DNA of 64,000 bases from Algoriphagus machipongonensis (GTDB lineage Bacteria; Bacteroidota; Bacteroidia; Cytophagales; Cyclobacteriaceae): assembly GCF_000166275.1 (NCBI RefSeq), contig NZ_CM001023.1, positions 806,001 through 870,000 on the forward strand, given 5' to 3'. Under the pieces are notes generated by a model, which was not told the origin of the DNA, did no database searches, and saw only the letters and a program-made list of their open reading frames with translations. This document shows, piece by piece, positions 50,247 to 51,654 of the stretch; the first letter of the stretch is position 1; each line of letters opens with the position of its first letter. Both the position numbers and the translations under genes were made by a program.

Positions 50247-50840
50247 TTAAGATTTTGCTTCTTCGCCGTCTGCGGAAGCCTCAGGAGCTGATTCTTCAGG
50301 AGCTGCCTCTTCAGAAGCTTCTTCTGTAGTTTCTTCAGTTGGATTGTTTGCAGCTTCAGCAGCAGCAAGAAGAGCTTTTTGCTCATCTTCTCTTGCTTTG
50401 ATAGCATCCAATCTCGCCTGGTTTTTAGCAGTTTCTGCATCCAATGCTTTCTGACGAGCATCAGCTTTCGCTTTATTGATACCTTCAGTCTTACCAGCAA
50501 TTTTTGCGTCTTTTTCTTCTAACCACGCTTCAAACTTCGCGTCTGCTTGTTCTTGTGTGATCGCACCTTTTAATACACCAATTTGAAGGTGTTTCTTCAG
50601 CATGATACCTCTGTAAGAAAGCATAGCTTTTACAGTATCGGTAGGCTGAGCTCCGTTCAACAACCATTTAAGAGCGCGCTCATTGTTGATGTTGATAGAA
50701 GCAGGATCTGTGTTTGGGTTATATGACCCGATTTTTTCGATGAAGCGTCCATCACGTGGAGCTCTTGCATCAGCTACAACCACGTCGTAGATAGCCATTT
50801 TCTTTCTACCTCTTCGTGCTAATCTGATTTTTACTGACAT
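50247..50840 (-). CDS. rpsP: 30S ribosomal protein S16 with long acidic tail
   Basis: 197 residues. The S16 core (about 1-85) is canonical: [37 protein letters not shown] and EDLKW-like [12 protein letters not shown]. The remaining 110 residues are an Ala/Glu-rich coiled-coil-like tail ([33 protein letters not shown]), a known feature of Bacteroidota S16 proteins of unclear role. First gene of the operon, preceded by a leader hairpin (50864-50882) and a TAnnTTTG box. Confidence 0.95.
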
Positions 50841-51057: not shown

Positions 51058-51094
51058 TGGCCCTGTACCTGCCTGCCGGCAGGCAGGGTTCAAC
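51058..51094 (+). pseudogene. tRNA-Arg 5' fragment with one palindrome insert
   Basis: tGGCCCTGTA, then an exact 20-nt palindrome CCTGCCTGCCGGCAGGCAGG (51068-51087), then GTTCAAC and divergence. The tRNA pieces are identical to the first nine and next seven bases of the intact tRNA-Arg at 51568. Confidence 0.7.
51068..51087. repeat. Perfect 20-nt GC-rich palindrome (reference copy)
   Basis: CCTGCCTGCCGGCAGGCAGG equals its own reverse complement. Related copies at 51193-51213 (21 nt), 51226-51245 (5 transitions) and 51280-51299 (1 change) all lie in tRNA copy fragments. Confidence 0.85.
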
Positions 51095-51183
51095 GCCGGC
51101 TCAGTCAAGACCAGTCGGACAAGGATAGAGGAAGCACAATAGAATTGATAATTCTACCTTTATATGGAAGGTGAATGGATTAT

Positions 51184-51304
51184 GGCCCTGTACCTGCCTG
51201 CCGGTAGGCAAGGGTTCAACGGATATCTACCTGTCGGTAGACAGGGAACAAGCGTTTCCTAAACGCTAGATCTAGGTTCCCCGCCTGCCGGCAGGCAGGG
51301 ATTC
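51184..51304 (+). pseudogene. tRNA-Arg(CCT) copy interrupted by three palindromes
   Basis: Collapsing the three inserts gives an exact copy of the first 55 or so bases of the tRNA-Arg at 51568: GGCCCTGTA (51184-51192), GTTCAACGGATA (51214-51225), GAACAAGCGTTTCCTAAACG onward (51246-51279), and GATTC (51300-51304). Inserts are 51193-51213, 51226-51245 and 51280-51299. The 3' acceptor strand is absent, so it cannot be a tRNA. Its anticodon stem is intact and still CCT. Confidence 0.85.
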
Positions 51305-51329
51305 TCAACAAAAGGATAAAAAATTGAAT

Positions 51330-51563
51330 ATGTTCACCGTGTATGCCTTAAAAAGTGAAAAGGATGGTAGGATTTATGTTGGTTTTACCCAAGATATTAA
51401 CAGGAGGTTGAAGGAACATAATTCAGGTAAAACCAGATCGACAAAAGGTTGGGTGCCTTGGTTTATTATATTTGCCGAGGAGGTAGAAACTAGAGAAGAA
51501 GCCCGAGCTAGAGAAATTTATTTGAAATCTGGTGTAGGAAAAGAATATTTGAAGTCATTATGA
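51330..51563 (+). CDS. GIY-YIG nuclease family protein
   Basis: 77 residues from ATG 51330; a TTG two codons upstream is in frame. One compact GIY-YIG domain: VYALKS (Tyr5) and IYVG (Tyr16-Val-Gly18) form the signature, Arg25 and His30 follow in RRLKEHN, and the catalytic Glu62 is in REIYLKSGVGKEYLK. Close in size to UPF0213-like or UvrC N-terminal-type proteins and to GIY-YIG homing enzymes without DNA-binding tail. It lies exactly between the broken tRNA copy and the intact tRNA; its stop is 4 bp before the tRNA. Confidence 0.9.
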   Translation: MFTVYALKSEKDGRIYVGFTQDINRRLKEHNSGKTRSTKGWVPWFIIFAEEVETREEARAREIYLKSGVGKEYLKSL

Positions 51564-51567
51564 ATAT

Positions 51568-51639
51568 GGCCCTGTAGTTCAACGGATAGAACAAGCGTTT
51601 CCTAAACGCTAGATCTAGGTTCGATTCCTAGCAGGGCTA
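51568..51639 (+). tRNA. tRNA-Arg (anticodon CCT)
   Basis: 72 nt, full cloverleaf: acceptor GGCCCTG/CAGGGCT (G-T wobble at the first pair), D-stem GTTC/GAAC, anticodon stem AGCGT/ACGCT with loop TTCCTAA (anticodon CCT, decoding AGG), variable AGAT, T-arm CTAGG/CCTAG with loop TTCGATT, discriminator A. No CCA is encoded. Confidence 0.97.
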
Positions 51640-51654
51640 CTTCCTTTTTTTATA

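Follow-up and report, generated by a model that had tools for sequence, protein, structure and literature searches.

Short GIY-YIG nuclease genes that stand alone beside tRNA genes, accompanied by broken tRNA copies carrying small palindromes, apparently constitute an undescribed group of minimal mobile elements in bacterial tRNA genes. With a probability of about 0.55, we read them as minimal, intron-less homing elements of the SegB kind that would cleave a tRNA gene, move and duplicate their target. This partly supports an earlier note on the locus, which had proposed that a nuclease nicks tRNA DNA, that repair duplicates the tRNA and that the palindromes may be mobile parasites in their own right. 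The tRNA preference, the empty sites and the local origin of the copies give good support to an element that targets tRNAs, carries a GIY-YIG gene and duplicates the tRNA locally, and nicking of the tRNA DNA would follow by analogy with phage SegB. Palindromes and nuclease look coupled rather than independent, because palindrome type tracks nuclease clade; against this stands the occurrence of the same 20-mer away from tRNAs.

The tRNA-Arg(CCT) locus in the window and across the genus

The window, the whole analysed stretch of 64,000 nucleotides from Algoriphagus machipongonensis, contains an intact tRNA-Arg(CCT) with two interrupted 5′ copies upstream, for which the earlier note's coordinates proved correct (Table 1). 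Copy b had been said to become an exact 5′ part of the tRNA once three inserts (21, 20 and 20 nt) are removed, and its tRNA segments do match the intact gene exactly. In copy a, the 20-nt insert between tRNA positions 9 and 10 is where it had been placed, but it is not the single insert of that copy: a second, degenerate one follows, and by eye it resembles the palindrome that another GIY-YIG subfamily carries at the same point of the same locus in sister genomes. All four inserts noted earlier in copies a and b are abutted by GTTC or GAAC, and the D-loop point of copy b is that used by most tRNA-Arg loci elsewhere. With up to three mismatches allowed, the 20-mer matched three times in the window and not once in 100 dinucleotide shuffles of it.

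Table 1 Features of the tRNA-Arg(CCT) locus, in window coordinates.
Feature	Position	Strand	Remark
Presumed bS16 gene, ribosomal protein	50247..50840	-	anchor for locating empty sites
Copy a, tRNA-Arg positions 1-9	51059..51067	+	
Perfect 20-nt palindrome (class K1), copy a, tRNA 9^10	51068..51087	.	
Copy a, tRNA-Arg positions 10-17	51088..51095	+	
Degenerate second-class (K2-like) palindrome, copy a, tRNA 17^18	51096..51123	.	by eye
Copy a, tRNA 18-23 remnant	51124..51129	+	by eye
Copy b, tRNA-Arg positions 1-9	51184..51192	+	
21-nt K1 palindrome variant, copy b, tRNA 9^10	51193..51213	.	
Copy b, tRNA-Arg positions 10-21	51214..51225	+	
20-nt K1 variant, copy b, D-loop 3′ edge (GGATA^GAAC)	51226..51245	.	
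Copy b, tRNA-Arg positions 22-55	51246..51279	+	
20-nt K1 variant, copy b, T-loop (GGTTC^GATTC)	51280..51299	.	
Copy b, tRNA-Arg positions 56-60 (GATTC)	51300..51304	+	
77-aa GIY-YIG nuclease ORF	51330..51563	+	Pfam PF01541, E 8.5e-16
Intact tRNA-Arg(CCT)	51568..51640	+	sole full-length match to own sequence in genome

As described earlier, the gene for the 77-aa GIY-YIG protein lies between copy b and the intact tRNA and ends 4 bp short of the latter. It is the only same-strand ORF of at least 50 aa there, and no integrase was found in this interval, on which ground a tyrosine-integrase tRNA island was rejected. The order in the window (dead copy, nuclease, intact tRNA) differs from the usual one in the genome, in which an intact tRNA is followed by the nuclease and then by the dead copy.

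The invariant residues of the protein, its low dN/dS and its confidently predicted fold suggest that it has probably been kept active. Eight residues (Y5, Y16, G18, R26, H30, G33, E62 and K66) are invariant among 27 aligned relatives, and the invariant Y, Y, G, R, H and E are presumably those with catalytic roles in the GIY-YIG domain. dN/dS was 0.04–0.24 in seven of ten nuclease pairs, the other three being saturated, and the structure model reached a pLDDT of 96. The nearest solved folds were UPF0213 (E 2.8e-4), Slx1 (E 5e-3 and weaker), I-TevI (E 0.25) and UvrC (E 0.7); UPF0213, the only fold match below E 0.001, is also the closest solved sequence. Family libraries matched GIY-YIG, T5orf172 and homing endonuclease models, the PHROG homing endonuclease model at E 1.8e-6, and PADLOC gave only weak ones, PDC-S14 and homing endonuclease among them. 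The protein amounts to a bare catalytic domain, without a separate DNA-binding domain. At E 1e-3 it had neither phage nor plasmid matches, and an origin from either was rejected on this basis. An intron- or intein-borne homing endonuclease was likewise rejected, since the ORF stands alone and Rfam at the gathering threshold returned only tRNAs at 16 loci and nothing at 15 (one locus common to both), with no group I intron among them.

Empty sites were sought at the orthologous locus, using as anchor the neighbouring ORF that we take, from sequence and synteny, to be bS16. The bS16 locus was located in 44 genomes of the genus, in 43 of which ARAGORN called a tRNA-Arg there, and a few of these stretches end within 1500 bp. 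Thirty-one of the 44 bear no trace of the element, leaving out a marginal opposite-strand match in L173 (E 0.001), in a comparison of occupied and empty sites that is between species, not strains. Genomes with an empty site thus exist, and their absence is what the earlier note had named as a refuting finding. In the empty locus L150 the upstream flank runs directly into the tRNA; in the filled locus L148 the same flank runs into a broken copy, and the intact tRNA comes after the nuclease. A full-length or nearly full-length nuclease is present in eight genomes (with an internal stop in L153), a decayed nuclease piece in two (L156, L184) and the palindrome pattern without a nuclease in three (L175, L178, L181).

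Two nuclease subfamilies occupy this locus, with different palindromes and insertion points. That of the window, with CCTGCC palindromes, occurs at the bS16 locus of two genomes, and the other in six, five of which carry palindromes of the CCCGCCCG type elsewhere in the D-loop (exact in L157, L163, L169 and L177, a variant in L153, none seen in L179). The best match of the second subfamily in the tree set described below is L119, another locus with a CCCGCCCG palindrome, with CCTGCC-type loci close behind.

Linkage to tRNA genes and dead tRNA copies in other genomes

The Algoriphagus genome, a single contig of 4.79 Mb, holds 23 PF01541 matches, two of them in long ORFs (611 and 460 aa) and the other 21 in small genes. 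Ten tRNA loci account for twenty of the small genes, which occur there alone or as tandem arrays: four each at Asp and Thr, three each at Pro and Met, and one each at Leu-TAA, Leu-CAA, Arg, a second Met-CAT, Val and Asn. A scored tRNA starts within 600 bp of 11 of the 21, and the remainder, bar one, are further array members. The arrangement of the window thus recurs at nine further tRNA loci of this genome, as well as in other genomes, which answers the concern of the earlier note that it might be an assembly artefact. The one small gene placed elsewhere, at 1723964 (L034, G000:C1:1721000-1727000), has no tRNA or Rfam match nearby, and together with 29 related tree rows it forms a separate clade of small GIY-YIG genes that are not at tRNA genes.

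Dead copies in this genome are exact tRNA stretches with hairpins in the D, anticodon or T arm, and in some of them the anticodon arm is replaced by a hairpin. Element units measure about 300–430 bp. Across the loci collected here, arrays with one intact tRNA at their end were found at L094, L032 and L035, the L094 array consisting of two dead-copy and nuclease units followed by the intact tRNA, while L030 and L036 have two intact tRNAs each. At L036, 5′ pseudo-copies of tRNA-Val with a D-loop hairpin (2676-2715 and 2920-2960) precede the two intact tRNA-Val genes, duplicated together with them. In genome G243, L315 (G243:C34:5500-11500) comprises eight alike units of about 365 bp, each with a nuclease and a tRNA 3′ fragment with hairpins; this array starts at a tRNA 3′ half, and an intact tRNA is absent from that stretch. 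Both the L094 array and the eight-unit array fit repeated rounds of duplication.

Relatives were then collected by protein alone, by scanning named genomes with the window protein. In 72 of the resulting 74 loci, a tRNA gene on the same strand lies no more than 338 bp away, and a random distribution of GIY-YIG relatives, the point on which the earlier note had asked for a check, is refuted. The record titles name Bacteroidota groups, Ignavibacteria and Chlorobiota, Marinimicrobia, WOR-3, Parcubacteria, Elusimicrobia, Omnitrophota and a handful of other groups; metagenome bins or contigs, some shorter than 4 kb, are frequent among them, and placement in far phyla may partly reflect misbinning. 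The same structure is also found in named isolates, for example Algoriphagus iocasae and Flavobacterium species. A Pfam-based set comprised 89 loci, some of them overlapping, from 58 genomes (the own genome and relatives), 29 of them given automatically and 60 hand-picked among the listed small ORFs. Here 67 of 109 small nucleases (20 of 33 and 47 of 76) had a same-strand tRNA within 600 bp, a number to which counting tRNAs on either strand added none. The control was 6 of 567 mechanically called ORFs (minimum length 70 aa, from 464 kb of the Algoriphagus genome), the window's own nuclease among them.

Partial copies of the locus's own tRNA were detected within 900 bp in 66 of 72 loci, compared with 7 of 72 for a control tRNA of another isotype; the test is the more generous of the two, as it tried every tRNA of a locus and the control only one, and a few of its matches are shared T-arm letters. 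Of 35 tRNA-Arg loci in which a D-loop insert is clear, 29 continue beyond it with sequence that fits the local tRNA no worse than any different tRNA-Arg; the dead copies therefore most likely derive from the local tRNA gene. A fixed unit copied between loci was rejected, as the agreement of dead copies with the local tRNA, and the varying positions at which they stop beyond the palindrome, give no support to a donor segment carried over.

Insertion points, palindrome classes and nuclease clades

Chaining of tRNA copies yielded 109 inserts in 77 of 174 loci, a count that covers loci with chainable copies and in which arrays and twice-fetched loci repeat rows. The D arm received 56 (51 hairpin-forming, 44 exact), the anticodon arm 17 (15 hairpins, 6 exact) and the T arm or acceptor 35 (16 hairpins, 5 exact), with one elsewhere that is not a hairpin. 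Altogether 55 of the 109 are exact insertions, as for patchy short mobile palindromes such as double-hairpin elements (DHE) and GC clusters. Against letter shuffles, the median fold z of the inserts was -2.96, and 83 of the 109 were at -2 or below.

A hairpin lies directly between ATA and G, at the 3′ edge of the D-loop, in 38 of 55 tRNA-Arg loci, and in 17 of these it is the identical 20-mer; the other 17 of the 55 fail the strict D-loop hairpin test, some of them with variants or a hairpin elsewhere. Many Arg loci have GGATA ahead of the D-loop insert. The same point is used across records of several phyla, among nucleases that share as little as about half of their residues. In one genome (G028), the two copies of tRNA-Arg(CCT) that were found (L196, G028:C11:396000-401000) both carry D-loop palindromes, and a search of that genome for an intact or further tRNA-Arg(CCT) gave none; either this tRNA is dispensable there, or it can function with a large hairpin in its D-loop.

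To relate palindromes to nucleases, we built a FastTree phylogeny, here used without support values, from 194 of 215 GIY-YIG matches, 21 having been dropped for lengths below 60 or above 160. On this tree, tRNA isotype, with 'none' as a state, required 41 changes as opposed to at least 112 in 200 shuffles. Palindrome class, in classes set after seeing the data, required 15 changes, where the minimum was 46 over 500 shuffles and 20 when labels were exchanged only within an isotype; the clade of 30 of the 194 proteins not at tRNAs was excluded from these class shuffles. All shuffles treat rows as unrelated, and rows that stem from arrays or from loci retrieved twice, such as L045 and L247, are not independent. 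A classified palindrome lies within 200 bp of 127 of the 164 nucleases of the tRNA clades (37 being without one) and of 5 of the 30 outside those clades. The nucleases of two tRNA-Met loci (L092, L094) fall among Arg ones on the tree, and both loci carry the Arg-type palindrome at the equivalent D-loop point.

Palindromes of this kind also occur away from the element. The exact 20-mer is present in 33 of 295 genomes of the class, and 26 of 30 fetched loci with it lack an ARAGORN tRNA. It is abundant in a few genomes, reaching 43 copies in G088. In the Algoriphagus genome, four of 12 K1 places have a small GIY-YIG gene no more than 600 bp away, where 2000 random draws gave 0.04 on average and never more than 1; eight of the 12 have no scored tRNA and no such gene nearby. 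At L025 and L027, larger intergenic repeats (TTGCTGGC...GCCAGCGCTGGG) enclose the 20-mer and CCCGAT-type palindromes, and no Y1 transposase lies within 2 kb of them. The four Y1 genes were within 2 kb of none of 12 K1 and none of 20 K3 places, and mobilisation of the RAYT/REP type was rejected on this count. Palindromes as a bulk genomic repeat were rejected as well, GC-rich ones numbering 39 in 464 kb of genome against 28 in one shuffle; among 32 that are not terminator-like, four are of the 20-mer type. Of 33 genomes with the palindrome, 23 had related GIY-YIG genes, as did 17 of 33 genomes without it, a difference so weak that coupling at the level of whole genomes was rejected. The 20-mers away from tRNAs, together with this weak co-occurrence, suggest that the palindromes spread in trans or that they are a separate repeat attracted by dead copies.

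Proposed explanation, alternatives and known systems

On the SegB-like reading, the element would consist of a stand-alone GIY-YIG nuclease of about 70–130 residues and at least one dead copy of the adjoining tRNA gene. The nuclease would break or nick the loop-coding stretch of a tRNA gene, recognising a short sequence or DNA shape. Repair would then copy the nuclease gene in and duplicate part of the local tRNA, usually with one intact tRNA remaining; the local duplication and the intact copy are seen, and from them we infer the repair path. The dead copy would acquire a hairpin at the point of attack, of a type set by the nuclease subfamily, which would account for the observed position and association. 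An intact tRNA could be attacked again, and renewed rounds would generate the arrays of (dead tRNA + nuclease)n seen beside an intact tRNA. The palindromes would be the nuclease's own mark, whether a repair product, a binding site or a co-mobilised hairpin, and would protect the dead copy. Since the presumed target is kept in the intact tRNA, self-cutting must be tolerated or limited.

More tentatively, and with distinctly less assurance, we suggest that nuclease and palindrome may be one two-part mobile system, in which the GIY-YIG protein would recognise the hairpin of its subfamily and install it at the cut point in the tRNA loop, the tRNA being duplicated and the host surviving. If so, a 20-bp palindrome would be about the smallest nuclease-driven mobile DNA, and the bacterial equivalent of the mobile palindromes in fungal mitochondria that still lack an explanation. 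Pairing a nuclease with short palindromes bears on how GC-rich palindromes move in mitochondrial DNA. Such elements would be a recurrent burden on the tRNA genes of Bacteroidota and, provided that the binning is correct, of several other phyla, and would account for many tRNA fragments and contextless small GIY-YIG proteins.

Other explanations would account for parts of these data. The palindromes could be an independent short repeat, REP-like or GC-cluster-like, that enters hairpin loops anywhere and is tolerated by dead copies, with the nuclease only duplicating the tRNA. The spread of the 20-mer over the class, at up to 43 copies and mostly away from scored tRNAs, its place within larger intergenic repeats at several sites of the own genome and its weak co-occurrence with the nuclease are what such a repeat predicts. 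We nevertheless find it rather unlikely, as K1 places lie close to small GIY-YIG genes far above the random mean, one D-loop point is shared across the records of several phyla, palindrome class follows nuclease clade within a single isotype beyond the shuffles, and no K1 place has a nearby Y1 transposase. Unlikely, too, is a structure-specific, Slx1-like nuclease that cuts the hairpins or cruciforms of tRNA genes and palindromes, with the dead copy as a binding site or decoy and not a scar. The ranking of UPF0213 and Slx1 ahead of I-TevI and UvrC, the bare 77-aa catalytic domain and the mostly hairpin-forming inserts of the D and anticodon arms are in line with this; the isotype-specific clades argue instead for recognition of tRNA sequence, and the family matches are to GIY-YIG, T5orf172 and homing endonuclease models (those from PADLOC being weak).

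That the gene is an old, vertically kept neighbour of tRNAs with a cellular role, such as control of tRNA dosage by amplification, and not selfish, seems improbable to us. It would agree with the low dN/dS, with an isotype that stays constant over wide taxonomic distance and with the SegB-driven gain in dosage in phage (PMC13096335), but one orthologous locus in the genus is patchily occupied, by two subfamilies and decayed relics, and the extra tRNA copies are mostly broken, so that dosage does not rise. An assembly or binning artefact has a negligible chance of explaining the pattern: short metagenome contigs are common among the 74 loci, but the window genome is one contig and the named isolates share the structure.

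No description of this system was found among the listed open-licence papers. The folds closest to the 77-aa protein are UPF0213 and Slx1, the latter a branched-DNA nuclease by the titles of its structure entries. Integrative elements with tyrosine integrases target tRNA genes and keep the tRNA functional on entering them; unlike these, the units here, of the length given above, have no integrase between the tRNA copies, and the copies are interrupted. The atp6/orf360 element of Allomyces brings an endonuclease gene together with a duplicated end of its target gene, one functional copy being kept, but it concerns a mitochondrial protein gene and is not known to carry palindromes, whereas tRNA genes with palindromes are involved here.

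Neurospora mitochondrial palindromes, reportedly described by Yin in 1981, are said to flank tRNA genes. The double-hairpin elements of Allomyces and the GC clusters of yeast are very short, GC-rich and patchily distributed palindromes, some of them at tRNA genes (PMC7218506, PMC4478555), and the latter source cites Lang 2014 for the proposal that endonucleases move GC clusters (PMC4478555). Set against these fungal mitochondrial palindromes, those reported here are bacterial and lie beside a nuclease gene and inside tRNA copies; putative target-site duplications are reported for yeast GC clusters, and none was seen here.

The closest likeness is to SegB, reportedly characterised by Brok-Volchanskaya in 2008 as a free-standing GIY-YIG homing endonuclease of T-even phages. 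In phage T6, a 718-bp unit of tRNA-Tyr and segB needs this nuclease in order to be amplified in tandem; the nuclease cuts within tRNA genes, with the motif RAWTSGAAC at 23 of 83 cleavage sites, and is reported to be without isotype preference (PMC13096335). In our own comparison, the reverse complement of the T-loop of the window's tRNA holds GAATCGAAC, which fits RAWTSGAAC, and the T-loop palindrome splits GAATCGAAC. Both systems have a GIY-YIG nuclease adjoining tRNA genes and tandem units of tRNA and nuclease. SegB is a phage gene, whereas the proteins described here are encoded in bacterial chromosomes, are about 70–130 aa long and fall into isotype-specific clades, and, unlike SegB as reported, they are accompanied by dead tRNA copies with subfamily-specific palindromes. 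The elements proposed here would thus carry the idea of SegB-driven tRNA amplification over from phages to chromosomes.
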